The notes under the pieces are model-generated. The model made no database searches. It had not been told where the DNA came from and worked only from the letters and a program-made list of their open reading frames with translations. Source: Psychroserpens ponticola (lineage in GTDB: Bacteria > Bacteroidota > Bacteroidia > Flavobacteriales > Flavobacteriaceae). Taken from it: a stretch of 64,000 nucleotides of DNA. Position 1 is the stretch's first letter, and the number at the start of each line of letters is the position of its first letter. Below are positions 43,201 to 55,492 of the stretch, piece by piece. A program made the translations under genes and the position numbers. The DNA lies in assembly GCF_023556315.2 (NCBI RefSeq), contig NZ_CP116221.1, positions 3,362,001 through 3,426,000 on the forward strand. The letters run 5' to 3'.

Positions 43201-44592
43201 TTATAAAGAGTTTATAAAATCTAATAAATCTCTTCTATCACGTGTAGATAATTCTTTAAAACTATCTTTAGAAGTTAAGGCTTCTCCTCCATGCCACAAA
43301 ATAGCTTCAGTAATATTTTTTGCTCTTCCGTCATGTAAAAAATCGGTATGACCATTAACGACTTGAGTTAATCCAATTCCCCAAAGTGGTCTTGTTTTCC
43401 ATTCGTTTCCATTCGCTAAAAAGTCAGGTCTATTATCTGCTAAATCATCTCCCATATCATGCAATAACATATCAGTATAGGCGTAAATCGTTTGATTAGA
43501 AATTGCTGAAATCGAATTACTACTTGTTGTCATACTTGGCACATGGCAAGAAGCACATTGTATGTCTTCAAAAATTTGAGCACCTCGTCTAACAGACTCT
43601 TTTTCTATATCTCTAGGCGCTGGCACAGCAAGAGTTTGGCAATAAAAAGCAACTTGATTTAAAATCTCTTCTGTGATTTCTGGATCGTCTTCAAAACCAT
43701 CACTTCCATTCGTCTGTCCAAAACCAGTTTCTTGTGGAAATATATAACTTGTAATTCCCATATCTCCGAGGTAAGCTCCAGCACATTGCTCTAATATTGT
43801 TGCTGTATTAGCTTTCCAACCAAAACGCCCTAACTGAGTTGTCCCAGAAATGATGTCATGAACATAGTTCGCTTTACCAGAAATTCCATCATCATCTATA
43901 TCATTAATATCTTGATGCATTAAAATTTCAGATTCAGAAATGGCTTCTAACAACCCTAACCCAAAAACTGGAGGTGCTAATCTTGGTGATAATAATATAG
44001 AACTCGGAACTGCAACATAAGTATCTATCAAATCGTAATTTGGCTTTTGTAAGGTTACTTGGGTTCCATCTGCTAAAGTTTCAACAATAGTAGTATAATT
44101 AACTTGAAATTTAGCTTCTGGCTCATAGCCAAAAATTGCTTGATTCTGAATTTGTAATCCGTAATTTGGTACAGGAACTGGCCCTCCATTTTCAGTAATT
44201 CCAGAAATACTAGATCTTAGAAAGAATCCACTTAATCCATTAATATTATCAGGAAAAGGAGCTCTTCCGTCTTTTGGATGACAAGAGATACAAGAACTAT
44301 TATTAAAAATTGGCCCAATGCCTCCATTGACATTTGCTGGCGCAGTAACAAAAGCAGCTTCAAATTGAAAATCACCATCTAGATGCATGTCTAAATCATT
44401 TCCATTAAGATTTGCTGCAGGTGTACTAAATGAATTACTAGACGTTAAAAACACAGTAGTATCTCCACCTGCTAACAACCGTTCTTGAAGACTTGGCAAT
44501 TCAACATAATCACTATTTTCATCAGACTGACAAGAGGTTAACGTTGTAATTACCAATAAGAAAAAAAAGTAAGAAGAAAATTTAAATTTCAT
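43201..44592 (-). CDS. Diheme c-type oxidoreductase lipoprotein (DHOR/thiol oxidoreductase-like)
   Basis: A 463-residue lipoprotein (LVITTLTSC lipobox) of the di-heme oxidoreductase family related to bacterial cytochrome c peroxidases. Two heme c sites are visible: CISCHPKDGRAPF (near residue 102) and CASCHVPSM (near 337), with candidate distal Met and His ligands. It is the third gene of the unit porin-imelysin-DHOR, an arrangement seen in iron-linked loci. A candidate attenuator (44613-44645) separates it from imelysin. The electron donor and substrate are unknown. Confidence 0.9.
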   Translation of the reverse strand: MKFKFSSYFFFLLVITTLTSCQSDENSDYVELPSLQERLLAGGDTTVFLTSSNSFSTPAANLNGNDLDMHLDGDFQFEAAFVTAPANVNGGIGPIFNNSSCISCHPKDGRAPFPDNINGLSGFFLRSSISGITENGGPVPVPNYGLQIQNQAIFGYEPEAKFQVNYTTIVETLADGTQVTLQKPNYDLIDTYVAVPSSILLSPRLAPPVFGLGLLEAISESEILMHQDINDIDDDGISGKANYVHDIISGTTQLGRFGWKANTATILEQCAGAYLGDMGITSYIFPQETGFGQTNGSDGFEDDPEITEEILNQVAFYCQTLAVPAPRDIEKESVRRGAQIFEDIQCASCHVPSMTTSSNSISAISNQTIYAYTDMLLHDMGDDLADNRPDFLANGNEWKTRPLWGIGLTQVVNGHTDFLHDGRAKNITEAILWHGGEALTSKDSFKELSTRDRRDLLDFINSL

Positions 44593-44612
44593 TAGACCTT
44601 ATTTTATATGAG

Positions 44613-44645
44613 AAAAAGAACACCAAACAAGTTGGTATTCTTTTT
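44613..44645 (-). terminator. Candidate attenuator between the imelysin and diheme genes
   Basis: The minus strand pairs AAAAAGAATACCAA with TTGGTGTTCTTTTT (one U-G) around a 5-base loop with a T-rich end. It could reduce expression of the last gene relative to the first two. Confidence 0.6.
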
Positions 44646-44669
44646 CATGATTTTAAGTGTGTGAAAGTA

Positions 44670-45743
44670 TTATAAATTAGATATAAATGGCATTAAACTC
44701 GTTTCTAAAACCGTTAATAAATCAGCAACTTTCGTTTGTGCATTTTGAACTGCATTTCTATTATCTTCGATAGCTTCAGTAAACGTTCCTGGTATGGCTT
44801 CTATTGCAAAAATTGCATCAGAAATGGCTAATTTAATTTGAGCATCTAAAGTTGTATTTGACAAGGCAACAACGTTTGCAATTCCGTTTCCACTATTTCC
44901 ATTATATTCTCCTAAATAAATATTTTGAATACTTCTAATATTATTAGCAAAATCTAATTTAGAATTATTACTAAAACGAGACTCTTCAGCTTCAGGTTTA
45001 GCGCCTCCATTATTCCCATTTAATGGCTCTTCAATTTTACCATTTGCAACCTCATCAGCAATAATTACAAGCCCTTCAACGATTTCTTGTAAAGCACCTT
45101 TTTGAGATGTATAAATTGATCCAGATTGTCCTGCATTAATAAAGTTTGACACAAAATCGCCTTCCGAAGCTAACCAACCATAATACAACTCTTGAGTTTG
45201 AGATTTCAAATTTTGAGTTGCAGCAACTAAATATTCAAGTTCTCTCGAAGTTAAATCTGAAGCAGATTTATTTCCGTTTAAACCCCAAACAAAATATTCT
45301 ATGGTATGAAATCCTCTAGCTTCGTTATTACTTTCAAGTAGTGTTGAGGTAATATTATTTCCACTGTTTAAAACATTATTAATCGCATTGACATCTACAG
45401 GCCAAGAATCGATAGCTGGATCAATTCCTTCTGTATCAACAGGTCCATATAAAAACCCTTCAGATTTCTCCCAAGGCGCTCTTGTATTTTGCCATGCCGT
45501 TTTTACTGTTTGTAATGCAGTTTCATCTCCAATTGTTAAGTTACTAACTGCTGTTTCTAATGTACCTGCATTTGTATATAAACTGTTATAGGTTTCTGTA
45601 ATAACATCAACTGATAAATTTGTTAATACTTGCGTGTATAAACTTGCATTTGGATCAACAGTTTCAGAACTATCATCATTATTACTACAGCTTGCCAGTG
45701 TAAATACTGTAAATATGCTTAAAAAAAATGTACGTGTTTTCAT
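44670..45743 (-). CDS. Imelysin (insulin-cleaving M75) family lipoprotein
   Basis: A 357-residue lipoprotein (FTVFTLASC lipobox) of the imelysin family. The GxHxxE motif is ARGFHTIEYFVWG, and the second repeat of the two four-helix bundles ends in the closing helix region. The family was named for insulin-cleaving activity, but many members, including EfeO-like proteins, are periplasmic iron-uptake components, and peptidase activity is disputed. Its partner genes (porin upstream, 24-base gap; diheme protein downstream) favour an iron-related role. Confidence 0.9.
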   Translation of the reverse strand: MKTRTFFLSIFTVFTLASCSNNDDSSETVDPNASLYTQVLTNLSVDVITETYNSLYTNAGTLETAVSNLTIGDETALQTVKTAWQNTRAPWEKSEGFLYGPVDTEGIDPAIDSWPVDVNAINNVLNSGNNITSTLLESNNEARGFHTIEYFVWGLNGNKSASDLTSRELEYLVAATQNLKSQTQELYYGWLASEGDFVSNFINAGQSGSIYTSQKGALQEIVEGLVIIADEVANGKIEEPLNGNNGGAKPEAEESRFSNNSKLDFANNIRSIQNIYLGEYNGNSGNGIANVVALSNTTLDAQIKLAISDAIFAIEAIPGTFTEAIEDNRNAVQNAQTKVADLLTVLETSLMPFISNL

Positions 45744-45767
45744 GGGTATTGTTTTATATGTGGTTTA

Positions 45768-47111
45768 TTAAAATTTGAATCCGATTCCTGCTGAAAATGT
45801 TTTATCATGTTGTTTTTCTCCAGTAAATTCTAAAGTCGATAGGTTATAATTTTCTGAACCTAAACGACGATCAGAATATTGTGCTTTCACAACAATTTGA
45901 GGATGTACAAACCAGTTGACACCACCTGTGATTGTCGTGCGCTCCCAACGTGGATTATCGACAATACTTCCTTCAACATCTTGCATTGTATCATAATAAT
46001 CGTAACGAACAAAAGGATATAACTGCTGTTTGCTTTCTGCATTAATTAGGTGTAAAATATTGTATCCAATTTCTGCTGATATGCCTAATGCATTTTTACC
46101 AACAGGTGTTCTTTTTACACCTAAATTATTCGATAGATTTGCGTTTCGAAGAGAGACGATATTTGAGTTTTCTAAGTTTCCAAAAAGTCCGATAGCATTA
46201 AATCTCAAGTTATTTTCGTTATAAGTAACATGACCCTCTACGATAGTTACATATGCGCTCTCCTCCATATCCTCTTTTGGTCTGTTTGCTGCGGAATCAT
46301 TTATATAAGCCGCAACACCAAAATAAGTATCTTTATGCGTACCAAACTTATAATCTAATCGTGCAGAAAATGCGAAAGATTGTGCATTAGCCATTTCAAA
46401 ACGTTGTTGGTAACCATCTTTTATCCAACCTCTTGACGAAAATCCCGAAGCATCTAAACCACTCACAACATAAGCTCTATAGTTGAATTTTTTTGCGAAA
46501 GTTCCGTAGAATTCAATACCTGTTTCGTACCATCCTAAAGGCAGAATGGCATTTTCCATCTCTTGACGTGTTGTTGTAAAATACTGAACAGGAGTATCTA
46601 AACTTTGATGCAGTCCAAAATACATTTTCATTTTACCTGCACGAATATTAAAATAAGGTTTGATTTTAAAGTTGATATGAACTTGTTCTAACTTTACACC
46701 TCCACCAGTTTCAATCTCATCTTCAAATTCACCAAATTCTTCTTGAGTATCTAAATCGATCGCAGAAGCAGTTCCACCATGTTCGTATTCAATTTCGGTT
46801 TTTAAACTTATTTTATCTGTAAAAAAGTATTCTAGGTATAAGTTTAAACGCTCAGCATCAAACTTGTCTTTTAAAGTAGGATCTGTATCGTAATCGTTAT
46901 TGTAGTAATTTATAACGCCGTAACCTCTTAAACTGAAGTTATTCCATTTTAATAATGGTTCATTTTTAGAAGCTTGTTCAGCTCTAAACTCTTCTCGAAG
47001 TTCTTCCTTAATTTCTTCTTTAAGTAGGCTTAAAGTAATTGAATCGTTTTGAACTTGTGAATTCATTTTTACAGAAACAAATACTAGAAGAATAACTATA
47101 ACTCTTTTCAT
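45768..47111 (-). CDS. Outer membrane porin (OprP/OprO-like)
   Basis: A 447-residue outer membrane porin: signal peptide VIVILLVFVSVKMNSQ, a helical coiled segment rich in Glu/Lys (EEIKEELREEFRAEQ), then the barrel with many alternating strands (LRGYGVINYYNND, FFTDKISLKTEIEYEHGG, AYVVSGLDASGFSSRG) ending in aromatic-terminated FSAGIGFKF. The pattern matches phosphate-selective porin-type proteins, but substrate choice is not readable. It is first in the operon with imelysin and the diheme protein, under a promoter with three symmetric half-sites. Confidence 0.85.
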   Translation of the reverse strand: MKRVIVILLVFVSVKMNSQVQNDSITLSLLKEEIKEELREEFRAEQASKNEPLLKWNNFSLRGYGVINYYNNDYDTDPTLKDKFDAERLNLYLEYFFTDKISLKTEIEYEHGGTASAIDLDTQEEFGEFEDEIETGGGVKLEQVHINFKIKPYFNIRAGKMKMYFGLHQSLDTPVQYFTTTRQEMENAILPLGWYETGIEFYGTFAKKFNYRAYVVSGLDASGFSSRGWIKDGYQQRFEMANAQSFAFSARLDYKFGTHKDTYFGVAAYINDSAANRPKEDMEESAYVTIVEGHVTYNENNLRFNAIGLFGNLENSNIVSLRNANLSNNLGVKRTPVGKNALGISAEIGYNILHLINAESKQQLYPFVRYDYYDTMQDVEGSIVDNPRWERTTITGGVNWFVHPQIVVKAQYSDRRLGSENYNLSTLEFTGEKQHDKTFSAGIGFKF

Positions 47112-47116
47112 TTTAA

Positions 47117-47157
47117 TCTAAATAAGAGTGCAAATTTATCCTTATTTAGACTAAATA
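47117..47157 (-). promoter_or_regulatory. Promoter with three-half-site operator of the porin-imelysin operon
   Basis: Minus-strand TAAATTTG (47131-47138) fits TAnnTTTG. TCTAAATAAG (47117-47126) and CTTATTTAGA (47141-47150) are perfect inverted arms around it. TATTTAGACTAAATA (47143-47157) is itself a 15-base palindrome of the DtxR/MntR-like kind. A metal-responsive repressor is suggested but not shown. Confidence 0.6.
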
Positions 47158-47218
47158 CAAATAAAAAGTAAATAAAATTTAGACTTTTTTTAATCTACTG
47201 AATTACAACACATAAGCA

Positions 47219-48917: not shown

Positions 48918-50054
48918 TTATTTCTTTACTGCTGAACATCCAGCCATAGTCGTTATTTTAATAGCTTCAGTTGGAGGTAAATCATCATTTCGCTTAACCA
49001 CTTCTTCAACAACATTTTGCGTTAACTCCTCGAAAGATTTCTCTAAAGCTGTTGCTGTTTGCAAGGCAGCTGGACGGCCAATATCTCCTGCTTCTCTTAT
49101 GCTTTGAACTAATGGTAATTCACCCAAAAATGGAACTCCTAAATCTTCTGCAAGATTTTGAGCGCCTTGCTTTCCGAAGATATAATATTTATTATCTGGA
49201 AGCTCATCAGGTGTAAAGTAAGCCATATTTTCGATAATACCTAACACAGGCACGTTGATACTTTCTTGTTGAAACATTGCAACACCTTTTTTAGCATCTG
49301 CCAAGGCTACATTTTGAGGCGTACTTACCACAACTGCTCCTGTAATTGGAAGCGATTGCATAATGCTTAAGTGAATATCTCCTGTTCCTGGTGGTAAATC
49401 GATTAATAAAAAATCGAGTTCTCCCCAAGCCGCATCAAAAATCATTTGATTTAATGCTTTTGCTGCCATTGGCCCTCTCCAAACGACTGCTTGATCTGGT
49501 TTTGTAAAAAAGCCTATCGATAACATTTTAACACCATAGTTTTCTACAGGTCTCATTTTAGATTTTCCATCAACATTAGCAGCCAAAGGTCTTTCTAATT
49601 CTACATCAAACATAATTGGCATTGAAGGTCCATAAATATCGGCATCTAAAACACCAACTTTAAATCCCATTTTTGCTAAAGTCACAGCCATATTTGCCGT
49701 TACAGTAGATTTACCAACACCACCTTTTCCTGAAGCTACAGCTACAATATTTTGAATGCCTGGAATCTTTTTCCCTTTAATCACATTAGGAGCAGATTTA
49801 GCAGGTGCATCAACTTTTACATTGACTGTTATTTTAGCCTTTTCATACACGATGTCATGAATGGTTTTCATGATTTCTACCTCAGTTTTCTTTTTGGCTT
49901 GTAAACTCGGATTCGTAATTGTGATATCCACAATAACCTCATCAGCAAAAGTGACCACATTTTTTACGGCTCCACTCTCGACCATGTTTCGCCCTTCTCC
50001 AGGTGCAGAAATAGTTTCGAGTGCTTTAAGTATGTCTTGTTTGTTTAGTTTCAT
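48918..50054 (-). CDS. Mrp/ApbC family Fe-S cluster carrier ATPase
   Basis: P-loop ATPase that binds and transfers Fe-S clusters. The 378 residues start with a MIP18/DUF59 domain (ILKALETISAP, IVDITITNPSL), then the deviant Walker A VASGKGGVGKSTVTANMA, switch DADIYGPS, DLPPGTGD and the PLVQSIREAGDIG segment. A C-terminal TMAGCSAVKK holds one cysteine; the family CxxC is not obvious in the C-terminal part. The ATG at 50054 is preferred over that at 50066. It overlaps in function with nfu directly downstream. Confidence 0.92.
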   Translation of the reverse strand: MKLNKQDILKALETISAPGEGRNMVESGAVKNVVTFADEVIVDITITNPSLQAKKKTEVEIMKTIHDIVYEKAKITVNVKVDAPAKSAPNVIKGKKIPGIQNIVAVASGKGGVGKSTVTANMAVTLAKMGFKVGVLDADIYGPSMPIMFDVELERPLAANVDGKSKMRPVENYGVKMLSIGFFTKPDQAVVWRGPMAAKALNQMIFDAAWGELDFLLIDLPPGTGDIHLSIMQSLPITGAVVVSTPQNVALADAKKGVAMFQQESINVPVLGIIENMAYFTPDELPDNKYYIFGKQGAQNLAEDLGVPFLGELPLVQSIREAGDIGRPAALQTATALEKSFEELTQNVVEEVVKRNDDLPPTEAIKITTMAGCSAVKK

Positions 50055-50224
50055 AGTTGTTTTCAAATCGAGATTCTATGTAGAATCATTCTAAATGCAA
50101 AGATACAGTGAATTGTTTAGAATTTGAAACCCTTTTTATTGAAATGAGTTATAACAGAAGTGAGTACGATTATACTTGCACTTTAACAAAAAAATGTATC
50201 TTTAAGGTACTGAATACCAACTTT

Positions 50225-53080
50225 ATGAAAAATTACTACATATTACTCATTACCCTTTTAATTTCATTTACGATTAATGCTCAGATTGTTGACATACCTG
50301 ACCCTGTTTTTAAAGACAGATTAGTTAACGGTTATTGTGTTGATTCAGATGGTAATGGTAGTGCAGACACAAATGCAGACACAAATAATGATGGTGAAAT
50401 TCAAGTCACAGAAGCATTAGCTGTTACTAATCTTTATCTTTACTGTTTTAACTCATCTTGCCAATTTTCTTCAGTGGAAGGATTAGAAGCTTTTACAAAC
50501 CTTGAATACTTAGAACTTTCTAACCATAACATTACTTCATTAAACGTAACTACGCTAACCAATCTTAATACATTTATTTGTAGATCCAATAATTCATTAA
50601 CTACAATAGAGTTAGGATCTTTACCTAACCTAAGCTCTCTAGAATGTGGTGGTAGTCAATTGACCTCACTAGATGTAAGTTTACTTACAAACCTTACTTC
50701 TTTAAAGTGTACTGGTACTCAATTAAGCACGTTAGATGTAAGCGGATTATCTAATCTCTCAACGTTAGAATGTCGATATAATCAAATAAACACGTTAACT
50801 CTTGGCACACTATCAAATCTCAATTATTTGGATTGTAGTGATAATCTATTAAGCACAATAGACCTAAGTGGCTTGACAATTACAACAACATTAAACTGTG
50901 TTAATAATCAACTAAACTCACTAAATATAAGTGGGTTAACAATTTTGGAGCGATTGTATTGTAATAATAATCAAATAACCAATTTAGACGCAAGTAATTT
51001 GTTAAACTTGGATGTTTTGGCTTGCAATGATAATGAATTAACCAATTTAAAGATTAGTGGCTTAACAAGTTTAACATCTCTGTCATGTAATAATAATCAA
51101 TTAAGTACATTAGAGCTAAGTTCTCTTGTGAATCTTGAAGGATTAGCATGTTCAAATAATCAATTAACCTCTTTAAATTTAGATTCTGCACCATATTTAG
51201 TATCTCTTAATTGTGGTTTTAATCAAATCGCAACTTTAGATCTCAGTTTACAAACTAATCTTAATTCTTTATCCTGCGGTTCAAATCAATTAACAGAATT
51301 AGACATAAGCCCTTTAGTAAATCTCAATACCTTGGATTGTAGTTCTAATCAAATAAGCGAATTAGATTTTACTAATGTGTCTTTAAGCAATCTCTATTGC
51401 CAAAATAATTTATTAACCTCTATAGATGCTAGCAATATGACTGCGCAATTTTTGAATTGCGCAAACAATCAACTAATAACTTTAAACATTAAAAACGGTT
51501 ATATTAATAAAAATGGCGAAATACTTAGTCCATATGACTTACGCCTTCTTGACTTCAGTAATAATCCTGATTTAATAAATGTTTGTGCTGATGATGAACC
51601 CATCTATGCAGGAAATTGGCCCTATTATGAATTGAATATTGTTCAGAATTTAATTAATCAATATGGATACACGACTTGTGCTGTTAATGGATATTGTTCC
51701 TTTACACCAGGTGGTGAATTTTATACTATAGAAGGAACTGTAATTCTTGATAGTGACGATAATGGTTGTGATAATAATGATTCTGGTTTTCCTAATTTAA
51801 ATTTTGGTATTACTGATGGAACAGAAACTGGTAATTTTATTGCAAATAGTTCTGGAGCCTATATGATTCCTGTTCAAGAAGGGTCTCACACCATAACTCC
51901 AACTTTTGAAACCACAAGTTACTTTACTATTTCACCATCTAATGTTAGTATATCGTTTCCCACAGATGCAAGTCCGTATATGCAGGATTTCTGTATCACA
52001 CCAAATGGTGAGTTTAATGATTTAGAAATTACCATCATTCCTTTAGGAGTTGCTCGTCCTGGTTTTGATGCTAATTATAAAGTGATTTATAAAAATAAAG
52101 GAACTACTAGTTTGACTGGTGATATCGATTTTGATTTTGCAGATAACCTTATGGATTTTGTTTCTGCTTCTCCTACTGAAGACACGCAATCTCTAAACCT
52201 ATTAACTTGGAATTTTAATGATTTAGAGCCATTTGAAAGTCGTGAGATTCTATTAACAATGAATATCAATTCACCAATGGAAACACCTCCTGTAAATGGT
52301 GATGACGTTTTGGTTTTTGATGCTTCTGTAAATTCTTCGGAAACTGATGAAACACCAGATGATAATACCTTTGAACTTCAACAAACTGTAGTCAATTCTT
52401 ATGACCCAAATGATAAAACGTGTTTAGAAGGTGCTTTTATCACACCTGAAATGGTTGGCGATTATGTACACTATATGATTCGTTTTGAAAATACTGGATC
52501 TGCTAATGCTATAAATATTGTAGTTAAAGATGATATTGATAGACTTACCTATGATTTGTCGTCACTCATTCCTTTACATGCAAGTCATGATTATGTTGCA
52601 AGAATTAAAGACAATGCATCAGACCATTATGTAGAATTCATTTTTGAAAACATCAACTTACCTTTTGATGATGCCAATAATGATGGTTATATCGTTTTTA
52701 AAATTAGAACACTTAACACTTTAGAATTAAATGACACTTTTGAAAATGATGCCGAAATTTATTTCGATTTTAATTTCCCAATCATTACTAATAATGAACA
52801 AACTACAATTGCGACTTTAAGTACTGAAGACTTTGAGTTGGCAAATAACTCGATTTCGCTGTATCCTAATCCGGCGACCAATCATCTAACTTTAGAATCG
52901 AAGCAAGCTATTAAACATATATCTATTTACGATATTTCTGGTAGACTCATAAATGAGGTTGCTTTTATTGGCACAAAAACAGAATTGACAATTTCTACTG
53001 AAGCGCTTTCAGCAGGCACTTATTTCTTAAAAATTAAAACGGAAACTGGTGACATTGTGAAACAATTAATAAAAGATTAA
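50225..53080 (+). CDS. Secreted leucine-rich-repeat protein with T9SS sorting domain, copy 1
   Basis: A 951-residue exported protein. The ATG at 50225 begins the signal peptide (ITLLISFTINAQ); the 39-residue upstream extension is not credible. After IPDPVFKDRLV come about 18 bacterial LRRs of ~21 residues, consensus NQLTSLDLSGLTNLxxLxC, with a recurrent C and N at the turn. Then two Ig/beta domains with DxNGCD motifs, a DUF7619-like domain ending in IYFDFNFPIITNNEQTT, and the type A sorting domain from LYPNPATNHLTLE. It is likely surface-bound adhesin-like material. The neighbour 3 bases downstream is a paralogue. Confidence 0.9.
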   Translation: MKNYYILLITLLISFTINAQIVDIPDPVFKDRLVNGYCVDSDGNGSADTNADTNNDGEIQVTEALAVTNLYLYCFNSSCQFSSVEGLEAFTNLEYLELSNHNITSLNVTTLTNLNTFICRSNNSLTTIELGSLPNLSSLECGGSQLTSLDVSLLTNLTSLKCTGTQLSTLDVSGLSNLSTLECRYNQINTLTLGTLSNLNYLDCSDNLLSTIDLSGLTITTTLNCVNNQLNSLNISGLTILERLYCNNNQITNLDASNLLNLDVLACNDNELTNLKISGLTSLTSLSCNNNQLSTLELSSLVNLEGLACSNNQLTSLNLDSAPYLVSLNCGFNQIATLDLSLQTNLNSLSCGSNQLTELDISPLVNLNTLDCSSNQISELDFTNVSLSNLYCQNNLLTSIDASNMTAQFLNCANNQLITLNIKNGYINKNGEILSPYDLRLLDFSNNPDLINVCADDEPIYAGNWPYYELNIVQNLINQYGYTTCAVNGYCSFTPGGEFYTIEGTVILDSDDNGCDNNDSGFPNLNFGITDGTETGNFIANSSGAYMIPVQEGSHTITPTFETTSYFTISPSNVSISFPTDASPYMQDFCITPNGEFNDLEITIIPLGVARPGFDANYKVIYKNKGTTSLTGDIDFDFADNLMDFVSASPTEDTQSLNLLTWNFNDLEPFESREILLTMNINSPMETPPVNGDDVLVFDASVNSSETDETPDDNTFELQQTVVNSYDPNDKTCLEGAFITPEMVGDYVHYMIRFENTGSANAINIVVKDDIDRLTYDLSSLIPLHASHDYVARIKDNASDHYVEFIFENINLPFDDANNDGYIVFKIRTLNTLELNDTFENDAEIYFDFNFPIITNNEQTTIATLSTEDFELANNSISLYPNPATNHLTLESKQAIKHISIYDISGRLINEVAFIGTKTELTISTEALSAGTYFLKIKTETGDIVKQLIKD

Positions 53081-53083
53081 ACT

Positions 53084-55492
53084 ATGAAAAATTACTACAT
53101 ATCTCTCGTTGCCCTTTTTATCTCTTTTACTTTAAATGCACAGATTATTGATATTCCTGACCCATTATTTAAAAATTTATTGGTAAATGGCAATTGTGCA
53201 ATTTTAAATAATTCAGGTACTTATGAGGATGTTGATACTAATAATGATAATGAAATTCAAATTAATGAAGCACTAGCCGTAACAAAGTTAAGACTATCTT
53301 GGCAACAAGGTTTTTCTTCAGTCGAAGGAATAGAATATTTCACAAACCTTGAGGAGTTAATTTTTATTGATACGACTAATTTAACTTCAATTGATTTAAC
53401 AAATAATACTAGCCTTGAAACCATAAAAATTGAAAATTGTCCAGCTTTAACTTCTTTTAATATTAATGGCTTAGTTAATCTAGACTTCCTCTCCTGTACA
53501 ATAAACAACCTTACAGAAATAGACTTGAGCACTAATATTAATTTGACTGAAGTATATATTACAGACACTTGGGTTAATCCTGATTCGATTTCAACTTTAA
53601 CTAATATAATTATCAATCCTTCGAATGTGATTGAGACATTTGTACTATACAATTCTTTAATTTCAGATTTTGATTTTAGTATTATGCCTGAATTACAAAC
53701 TTTAGATTGCAGATACAATCAATTTACCGAATTAGATATTAGTTCAAATCCATTATTACAAGTAGTAAATTGTAGTAATAATATGATTTCTAATCTAGAT
53801 TTAAGTTCAAATCCATTACTTGAAACACTTTATTGCAATTTTAATATGTTAACATCATTAGATATTAGCAACACACTAATTAAAGAACTTCAATGTTCTT
53901 TTAATCAGCTTGAAACTTTAAATTTGAAAAACGATGTATATAATAAGGAATATTGTTTTAGTTCTGATTGCTATGGATGGATTAATTATAATCCGAACTT
54001 GGCATATATTTGTGTAGATGATGAACTTTTCAATGGTAATAGTGAGTTTGAACAAGTTCTAAGTTATATTGATTATTTTGGTTATAATTGTGTAGTTAAT
54101 TCGTATTGCTCTTTTGAACTAGGTGGAGAATTCTATACCATAAATGGTAATACAAAAATTGATTTAGATTACAATGGCTGTGATATAAACGATACTGTTT
54201 TACCACATGTAAATTTTGAAATTACAAATGGATCTGAAACTGGGAATTTCATTTCTAACACTTCTGGAGATTATTCTATTCCTTTGGGAAATGGTTCTCA
54301 TACCATAACTCCTATCCTTGAAAATCCGAGTTATTTTACAGTAACTCCTTCAAGTCTTACAGTTGATTTTCCAACAGATGCAAGTCCGTTTATGCAAGAT
54401 TTTTGCATCACGCCAAATGGTACATTTAACGATTTAGAAATCACTATCATTCCCTTAGGTGTTGCTCGTTCTGGTTTTGATGCCAATTATAAAATCATCT
54501 ATAAAAACAAAGGGAATACTTCGCTTTCAGGAGATATCAATTTTAATTTTCAAGATGACCTTATGAATTTTATTTTGGCTACTCCTACTGAAAATTCTCA
54601 ATCTCCAAATACCTTAACTTGGACATTCAATGACTTAACACCATTTGAAATTCGTGAGATTGAATTGACCTTGAATTTAAATACACCAATGGATCCAGTT
54701 CCTTTAAACGATGGAGATGTGTTGTCATTTATTTGTTCTATCAATTTTTCGGAAACTGATGAAACACCAGATGATAATACCTTTGAACTTCAACAAACTG
54801 TAGTCAATTCTTATGACCCAAATGATAAAACCTGTTTAGAAGGTGCTTTTATTACACCTGAAATGGTTGGTGATTATGTACACTATATGATTCGTTTTGA
54901 AAATACAGGATCTGCTGAAGCTGTAAACATAGTGGTAAAAGATGATATTGATAGAACCAAGTATGACTTATCGTCACTTGTTCCAATTACTGCTAGTCAT
55001 GACTATGTTGCTAGAATTAAAGATAATGCTGTATTCCATTATGTAGAGTTCATTTTTGAAAATATCAACTTACCTTTTGATGATGCCAATAATGATGGTT
55101 ATATCGTTTTTAAAATTAGAACATTGGATACTTTAGTGTTAAATGACACTTTTGAAAATGATGCTGAAATTTATTTCGATTTTAATTTTCCAATCATTAC
55201 TAATAACGAACAAACGACAATTGCCACTTTAAGTACTGAAGACTTTGAGTTGGCAAATAATTCAATTTCACTATATCCTAATCCGACGACCAATCATCTT
55301 ACTTTAGAGTCAAAGCAAGCTATAAAGCAAATCACGATTTATGATATTTCTGGCAGATTGATAAATGAGGTTGCTGTTATTGGTACAAAAACAGAGTTAA
55401 CCATATCTACTGAAATGCTTTCAACTGGGACTTATTTTGTAAACATTAAAACGGAAACGAGTGAAGTTGTGAAGAAAATTATTAAAGAATAA
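53084..55492 (+). CDS. Secreted leucine-rich-repeat protein with T9SS sorting domain, copy 2
   Basis: An 802-residue paralogue of the gene before it, starting 3 bases after its stop. Signal peptide LVALFISFTLNAQ, then IPDPLFKNLLV and a shorter LRR block with about nine recognisable units (for example LLQVVNCSNNMISNLDLSS). The Ig-like, DUF7619-like and sorting domains (LYPNPTTNHLTLE) are close to copy 1, and stretches of the DNA in the C-terminal half are almost identical. It was probably produced by tandem duplication, followed by LRR divergence. Same expected destination. Confidence 0.9.
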   Translation: MKNYYISLVALFISFTLNAQIIDIPDPLFKNLLVNGNCAILNNSGTYEDVDTNNDNEIQINEALAVTKLRLSWQQGFSSVEGIEYFTNLEELIFIDTTNLTSIDLTNNTSLETIKIENCPALTSFNINGLVNLDFLSCTINNLTEIDLSTNINLTEVYITDTWVNPDSISTLTNIIINPSNVIETFVLYNSLISDFDFSIMPELQTLDCRYNQFTELDISSNPLLQVVNCSNNMISNLDLSSNPLLETLYCNFNMLTSLDISNTLIKELQCSFNQLETLNLKNDVYNKEYCFSSDCYGWINYNPNLAYICVDDELFNGNSEFEQVLSYIDYFGYNCVVNSYCSFELGGEFYTINGNTKIDLDYNGCDINDTVLPHVNFEITNGSETGNFISNTSGDYSIPLGNGSHTITPILENPSYFTVTPSSLTVDFPTDASPFMQDFCITPNGTFNDLEITIIPLGVARSGFDANYKIIYKNKGNTSLSGDINFNFQDDLMNFILATPTENSQSPNTLTWTFNDLTPFEIREIELTLNLNTPMDPVPLNDGDVLSFICSINFSETDETPDDNTFELQQTVVNSYDPNDKTCLEGAFITPEMVGDYVHYMIRFENTGSAEAVNIVVKDDIDRTKYDLSSLVPITASHDYVARIKDNAVFHYVEFIFENINLPFDDANNDGYIVFKIRTLDTLVLNDTFENDAEIYFDFNFPIITNNEQTTIATLSTEDFELANNSISLYPNPTTNHLTLESKQAIKQITIYDISGRLINEVAVIGTKTELTISTEMLSTGTYFVNIKTETSEVVKKIIKE

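Follow-up and report, generated by a model that had tools for sequence, protein, structure and literature searches.

A putative Fur-repressed porin-imelysin-DHOR operon of Psychroserpens ponticola and its 23-bp promoter box

The window analysed here is a stretch of 64,000 nucleotides from the 4.03 Mb genome of Psychroserpens ponticola (contig NZ_CP116221.1, positions 3,362,001 to 3,426,000 of the forward strand; positions below are those of the window unless a locus or contig is named). It contains three minus-strand genes, encoding an outer-membrane porin, an imelysin-like protein and a two-heme protein of the DHOR/DUF1111 family, preceded by a 23-bp inverted repeat. Comparison with related genomes and with described Fur sites suggests that these genes form a Fur-repressed, Efe-like outer-membrane iron-acquisition operon, a reading to which we give a probability of roughly 0.75. 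The repeat, TTATTTGTATTTAGTCTAAATAA at 47142-47164 on the minus strand, would be the Fur box; it was recognised by promoter conservation, a matrix search and pattern scans.

The operon and its promoter

According to open reading frame (ORF) and Pfam calls the genes lie head to tail and are transcribed in the order porin (45768-47111, Porin_O_P-like), imelysin (44670-45743, Peptidase_M75, 198.7 bits) and DHOR (43201-44592, DHOR, 397.2 bits). This order was kept in 17 of 17 related loci from named genomes, which bears out the first-pass annotation of the window, made from the letters alone, where the three were called as one operon. The closest named relative of the porin, at 88% identity, is found in Lacinutrix sp. 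C3R15.

Membership of the M75 superfamily is indicated by the profile match and a GxHxxE motif (GFHTIE at residue 144), and a PDB sequence search identified 3n8u, 4ecg and 7xrx as relatives of the imelysin; the same search with DHOR and with the porin gave no match. The DHOR/DUF1111 assignment is supported by the profile match and by CxxCH heme sites at residues 101 and 346, of which the Cys and His are invariant in 13 aligned orthologues. Both proteins appear, in our own reading, to start as putative lipoproteins, a signal-like stretch being followed by a cysteine. The porin matches Porin_O_P with 21.8 bits at a cut-off of 20.9, the best stretch covering 50 residues. In its AlphaFold model, of moderate confidence (pLDDT 65.6), 16 beta strands are accompanied by a long helix at the N terminus. 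Among the 50 Foldseek matches listed are general porins and OprP, with TMq values of 0.41-0.53; OprP (2o4v) ranks 48 by E-value, its TMq of 0.53 being among the highest. Since the model resembles general porins, the substrate cannot be read from it.

The promoter carries a -7 element, TAAATTTG (TAnnTTTG), at 47131-47138 on the minus strand, recognised from the sequence and from orthologous promoters. In F. psychrophilum, TAnnTTTG has been described as the -7 element for sigma-A (PMC9723704). The first-pass annotation had correctly reported that TCTAAATAAG (47117-47126) and CTTATTTAGA (47141-47150) bracket this element and that TATTTAGACTAAATA (47143-47157) is a 15-base palindrome with perfect arms (7+1+7). 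That the palindrome acts as the operator was not confirmed. The palindrome is exact in just two of the 18 orthologous promoters, those of the window and of locus L029; these 18 comprise the window, 16 of the 17 named loci and one from genome G018 (L124), L016 being excluded as its contig starts inside the porin gene. As a regulon motif it was rejected, as TTTAGNCTAAA occurs at seven places in the genome while a reversed-pattern control occurs at 34, and for the 15-mer with up to two mismatches the 27 forward matches remain below the 44 of the control. The 15-base box had also been expected before iron or manganese genes; beyond the porin promoter none of the TTTAGNCTAAA sites precedes an iron gene, as judged by eye.

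When the promoters are aligned side by side the conserved unit turns out to be a longer inverted repeat of 23 bp, TTATTTGKATTNARTCTAAATAA, around a single unpaired base at the centre. The arms pair perfectly in Mangrovimonas (L027), giving the palindrome TTATTTGGATTAAATCCAAATAA. Over the 18 box-anchored promoters pairwise identity reaches 0.83 within the box, against 0.28 and 0.48 for two blocks upstream and 0.42 for two blocks downstream. A strict TAnnTTTG follows the box by 2-5 bp in 16 of the 18; L028 is one base off and L032 has none. In the window the box overlaps the spacer and a TTTG in its left arm (47158-47161, minus strand), 19 bp from the -7 element. We call this TTTG -33-like on the basis of what we take to be the -33 consensus. 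It is present in the left arm of most of the 18 promoters and could serve as the -33 element, a double role which may explain why this arm departs from TTTAG.

The three half-sites of the first-pass annotation are better read as one full box and a weaker second box, at 47103-47125 on the minus strand, that spans the start codon. This second box has the half-site TTATTTAGATT and, with a matrix score of 6.7, ranks fifth in the window. A similar half-site lies near the start codon in some relatives, for instance L019. A matrix built from 16 sites at other genes, none of them from the porin operon, places 47142-47164 first in the 64-kb window with 25.9 bits, followed by a site at 50076 with 8.0. 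These 16 sites were found via the porin-promoter pattern, hence the matrix test is only partly independent; the same applies to promoter scans with the 23-bp consensus, which is likewise derived from the porin promoters, whereas the Riemerella consensus used below is independent.

The box at other genes

Allowing three mismatches, the 23-bp pattern occurs at nine places in the genome, against two per strand for the reversed control. Six precede genes: the porin operon of the window; feoAB; a divergent pair of TonB receptor and DUF6607-like genes; a sufA-like gene, assigned to Fe-S_biosyn by Pfam, with a sufB-like gene behind it; a gene of the AraC family, its start overlapped by the box, between hemA-like and hemH-like genes; and, immediately behind ferritin, a small Cys-rich ORF. 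The genes feoA, feoB, sufB, hemA, hemH, ferritin and the DUF6607-like gene were named by eye from their translations. The absence of the box from other metal genes had been put forward as what would speak against a metal-responsive system; once the 23-bp element replaces the 15-mer, boxes are found at such genes.

With at most two mismatches the box was found in 25 of 29 genomes. Within the genus it is present in 16 of 17 genomes (43 forward matches, 5 for the control) and in the 12 genomes of other families there are 15 matches against 4, many of these cross-genome matches being the same promoter in different species, not independent events. We examined 26 of the best matches as loci (L061-L086), corresponding to 24 distinct promoters as L063/L085 and L065/L086 are paired. 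By eye, the neighbour of the box is a porin-like gene in seven, a DUF4856 gene in seven, a TonB receptor gene in four and feoAB in two, with single cases of AraC/hemA, DUF6607/TonB and the AraC gene as at L035. Pfam analysis of ten representatives confirmed DUF4856, DUF6607, TonB plugs, AraC HTH and Fe-S_biosyn; two porin-like proteins (L065, L061) had no Pfam match and show 24-26% identity to the window porin.

The strongest single case for a regulon of iron genes is made by the imelysin genes. M75 matches were obtained in 12 of the 29 genomes, 14 matches in 13 operons, and a box precedes the first gene in 12 of these operons, that of the window included. In eight congeners (L131-L138) the order is DUF4856-imelysin, followed in seven by an HTTM-like gene; all eight carry a box with at most two mismatches just before DUF4856 and a second box 73-74 bp away. 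One DUF4856 was confirmed by Pfam, the others and the HTTM partners being assigned by eye. Both imelysin operons of G028 have boxes with three mismatches and that of G018 a weak one, with 18 of 22 consensus bases. At a limit of four mismatches, 15 places were counted in the 15 loci of this survey (58,552 bases), some of them repeated in overlapping loci, and only 3 with the reversed pattern. DHOR was not found in the 16 congeners searched, so the imelysin operon of the window genome is of a type of its own within the genus.

Elsewhere in the window a Fur-type box, ATTTAGAATGATTCTACAT, is found at 50078-50096 on the minus strand, close before an mrp/apbC gene for an Fe-S carrier (48918-50066, minus strand). 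A similar box after a TTTG element precedes mrp in four of seven relatives examined (L017, L022, L029 and L030). The stretch 50108-55492 encodes, by eye, two neighbouring paralogous leucine-rich-repeat surface proteins with a C-terminal sorting-type domain.

Fur and the other candidate regulators

The best Fur candidate of the genome (G000:C1:2645589-2646038) lies upstream of a purA-like gene. It aligns best with solved Fur proteins, including the HDH and VIEF segments, which we take to be metal-sensing ligand segments, and is 93-99% identical in all 16 congeners. The position of fur before purA has been described for F. psychrophilum as well (PMC9331221). As would be expected of a Fur-regulated operon, an odd-centred inverted repeat of the Fur type overlaps the promoter, and the genome encodes a Fur with the sensing-site segments.

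In the literature searched, flavobacterial Fur sites were found for Riemerella only. For R. anatipestifer a 19-bp odd-centred consensus, ATTTAGAATTATTCTAAAT, has been published with electrophoretic mobility shift assays (EMSA) on four promoters, and expression of the imelysin gene RAYM_09789 increases 3.07-fold under iron limitation and 1.93-fold when fur is deleted and iron is present (PMC5609570). Fur was also shown by EMSA to bind rhuB with ATTTAGAATTATCCTAAAT (PMC10986502), and a chromosomal Fur-box mutant of rhuH was derepressed (PMC11967795). Scored against the Riemerella consensus, our 18 promoters reach a mean best of 14.78 of 19, compared to 12.12 for shuffled promoters, and none of 200 shuffled sets reaches it.

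Several observations weigh against this assignment. Single promoters give p values of 0.005-0.33 in the same comparison, and the shuffles ignore common descent; the window box matches the Riemerella consensus at 15 of 19 positions and differs in the bases beside the centre. The boxes of L032 and L124 are poor. Three of the nine places in the genome are not promoter sites, L037 and L038 lying in or at the end of coding sequences and L041 between convergent genes, and at L078, L079 and L081, three of the 26 loci examined, the box lacks neighbour genes of the kinds listed. A relaxed 19-bp pattern with three mismatches is hardly above its control (94 against 84) and was dropped as a search motif for this lack of discrimination. 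In G021 no box with up to six mismatches was found in the 1.2 kb beyond the first gene of the imelysin operon; the Fur of this genome is only 46% identical to that of the window genome. No box precedes fur itself, the best having nine mismatches, and no NCBIfam Fur model exceeds its cut-off with the candidate. Support from Riemerella is partial as well: its imelysin retains a 2.92-fold response to iron loss without fur, hence Fur is not its sole iron control; the promoter lies outside the published box table and the four EMSA promoters; feoAB does not appear in the Fur table; and the imelysin cluster is of a TonB-HTTM kind, unlike the porin-led operon (PMC5609570). Weighing these points against the conservation and distribution of the box, Fur control of the porin-imelysin-DHOR operon appears quite probable.

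The residual iron response in Riemerella could also indicate that another iron-state regulator, a MliR-like MerR activator or a further Fur-family protein, acts on the operon, by itself or jointly with Fur. In Bizionia argentinensis deletion of mliR lowers the level of an imelysin-like transcript (PMC9478572), and the window genome encodes two more Fur-family proteins (L044, L045). The consulted part of that article gives no DNA motif for MliR, however, and L044 and L045 look Zur-like by eye, with CxxC pairs. Moreover, the box occupies a repressor position over the core promoter and resembles the EMSA-tested Riemerella box. We therefore regard such a regulator as unlikely.

Less likely still is the assignment proposed in the first-pass annotation, a DtxR/MntR-type metal box, by which the feo-linked repressor of this family (L033:6694-7350) would read the box and the operon would answer to manganese or iron. 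This protein is closest to MntR models in NCBIfam, under their cut-offs, and its gene, the only DtxR-family gene of the genome, sits between feoAB and a cluster encoding a TonB receptor, a metal-binding protein and an ABC transporter. Of 28 dtxR matches 25 were examined, L112-L114 being left out as partial matches with frames over 430 residues. The ten closest of these 25 homologues have an upstream palindrome that shares the half-site TTTAG/CTAAA with the porin box but is even and 16 bp long (TTTAG-N6-CTAAA), whereas the porin box is odd, with a spacing of 7, like the published Riemerella Fur box; the 25 include 15 regions without this palindrome (L097-L111). The window promoter alone does match the DtxR-type palindrome at 12 of 16 positions (p 0.05), as does L028 (p 0.025), yet the 18 porin promoters have a mean of 10.28 of 16 against 9.90 for shuffles, and 12 of 200 shuffled sets score as high. 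In 12 of the 16 congeners DtxR is only 33-36% identical, while 11 of those 12 keep the box. That Fur is nearly invariant across the genus and the box retained while DtxR is swapped further weakens this assignment, and spacing, the palindrome upstream of dtxR itself and phylogeny together led us to reject DtxR/MntR as reader of the box. The "metal-responsive envelope system" of the first-pass annotation hence keeps its link to iron, given by the 23-bp box at iron genes here and in relatives, but loses its regulator.

Three observations concern dtxR itself. The intergenic region between dtxR and the TonB receptor gene (L033:7351-7454; G000:C1 ~3630350-3630453) holds a separate even palindrome, TTTAGATTGATCTAAA, likely a putative MntR/DtxR site for the manganese-type ABC cluster. 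In the twelve congeners with 33-36% DtxR identity (L100-L111) a different upstream motif, of the kind TTTAAG-N4-CTTAAA, is present in most of those listed. In G019 a DHOR-Rieske-porin-like cluster without imelysin (L145) is divergent from dtxR, which is followed by a ZIP-type transporter gene, all named by eye; this cousin, which favours the DtxR side, could really be DtxR-controlled.

Finally, a chance origin of the repeats, as AT-rich motifs near an otherwise ordinary promoter, agrees with the lack of enrichment of the 15-mer by itself but is contradicted by the conservation and enrichment of the 23-bp element, and is hardly credible.

Proposed function and relation to known systems

Under Fur control, Fe(II)-loaded Fur would occupy the 23-bp box and block RNA polymerase when iron is sufficient; when iron is short Fur would leave, and porin, imelysin and DHOR would be made. 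The location of the box over the core promoter points to repression by Fe(II)-Fur, and the on/off switch is what we infer from its conservation and from the Riemerella Fur data. By analogy with Efe-like systems, small iron complexes would cross the outer membrane by way of the porin, iron or a complex of it would be handled by the imelysin, and DHOR with its two hemes would perform a redox step, perhaps from Fe(III) to Fe(II), after which Fe(II) may enter via FeoAB, which bears the same box.

A role of the operon in iron uptake is probable. Imelysin-like proteins have been reported to occur almost always with two-heme peroxidase-like proteins (PMC3143127), and EfeM, which consists of M75 only, prefers copper, iron and zinc (PMC9174327). 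A simple role in iron binding is disfavoured by thermofluor assays, in which neither of the two imelysins tested showed specific binding of ferric ion or heme (PMC3143127). The structure prediction of DHOR is unusable (pLDDT 37.2), so that its proposed redox role rests on the family assignment, a further point against the proposed chain. The route from reductase to FeoAB is tentative, well short of an even chance. More doubtful is a TonB-independent iron entry at the outer membrane with the porin as a working part, in which the imelysin, possibly exposed at the surface, and a ferric reductase with two hemes would join it in passing Fe(II) to the co-regulated FeoAB, and which would replace the DUF4856-imelysin-HTTM system within the genus.

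The operon shares components with several known systems. P. aeruginosa PA4370-PA4373 has an imelysin, a DUF1111-type two-heme protein, no EfeU and Fur control, and Vibrio cholerae VC1264/VC1266 has an imelysin and Fur control (PMC3143127). Compared to these, the window operon begins with a porin, 16-stranded in the model, has one imelysin and not two, and carries a box of the flavobacterial type. In the iron-uptake operons EfeUOB and EfeUOB-M, too, a protein with an M75 domain is paired with a heme protein (PMC9174327, PMC3577903). The window operon, with only porin, imelysin and DHOR genes, contains no EfeU (Ftr1-type) permease, and its Pfam matches (Peptidase_M75, DHOR/cytochrome c) include neither the EfeO cupredoxin domain nor a DyP-type EfeB; DHOR, with two c-type hemes, takes the place of EfeB and a porin is added. 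The target table of the R. anatipestifer Fur regulon lists an imelysin and an iron-type outer-membrane protein, RAYM_09824 (PMC5609570). In contrast to the window operon, the Riemerella imelysin adjoins a TonB receptor gene and a gamma-carboxylase (HTTM-type) gene. The Riemerella Fur box is of 19 bp; the window box extends over 23 bp, its TTA/TAA ends are conserved and its centre resembles ATT-N-AAT. The operons of the eight congeners share the upstream box and the imelysin lipoprotein, but have DUF4856 and mostly HTTM as partners in genomes without DHOR.

Published work already covers imelysin-DUF1111 clusters, imelysins under Fur control and a Fur box of a flavobacterium. The description of the system as little characterised is fair for the porin, less so for imelysin-DUF1111 clusters and for the Fur control of some imelysins (PMC3143127, PMC5609570). 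No description of a porin-imelysin-DHOR operon was found in the literature searched. The Figure 8 legend of PMC3143127 names a locus FP1487, by its prefix of F. psychrophilum, and we therefore do not claim that the operon is unpublished. What is added here, the leading porin gene and the regulon described above, extends known systems and is a refinement, not a new kind.

For the biology of these bacteria, the operon ties a porin to the imelysin/two-heme pair. For flavobacteria related to Lacinutrix, the analysis yields a Fur box that can be put to the test and predicts a small regulon of iron genes, which would comprise feoAB, the sufA-like gene, the AraC gene beside heme genes, the TonB/DUF6607 pair, the imelysin operons and mrp.

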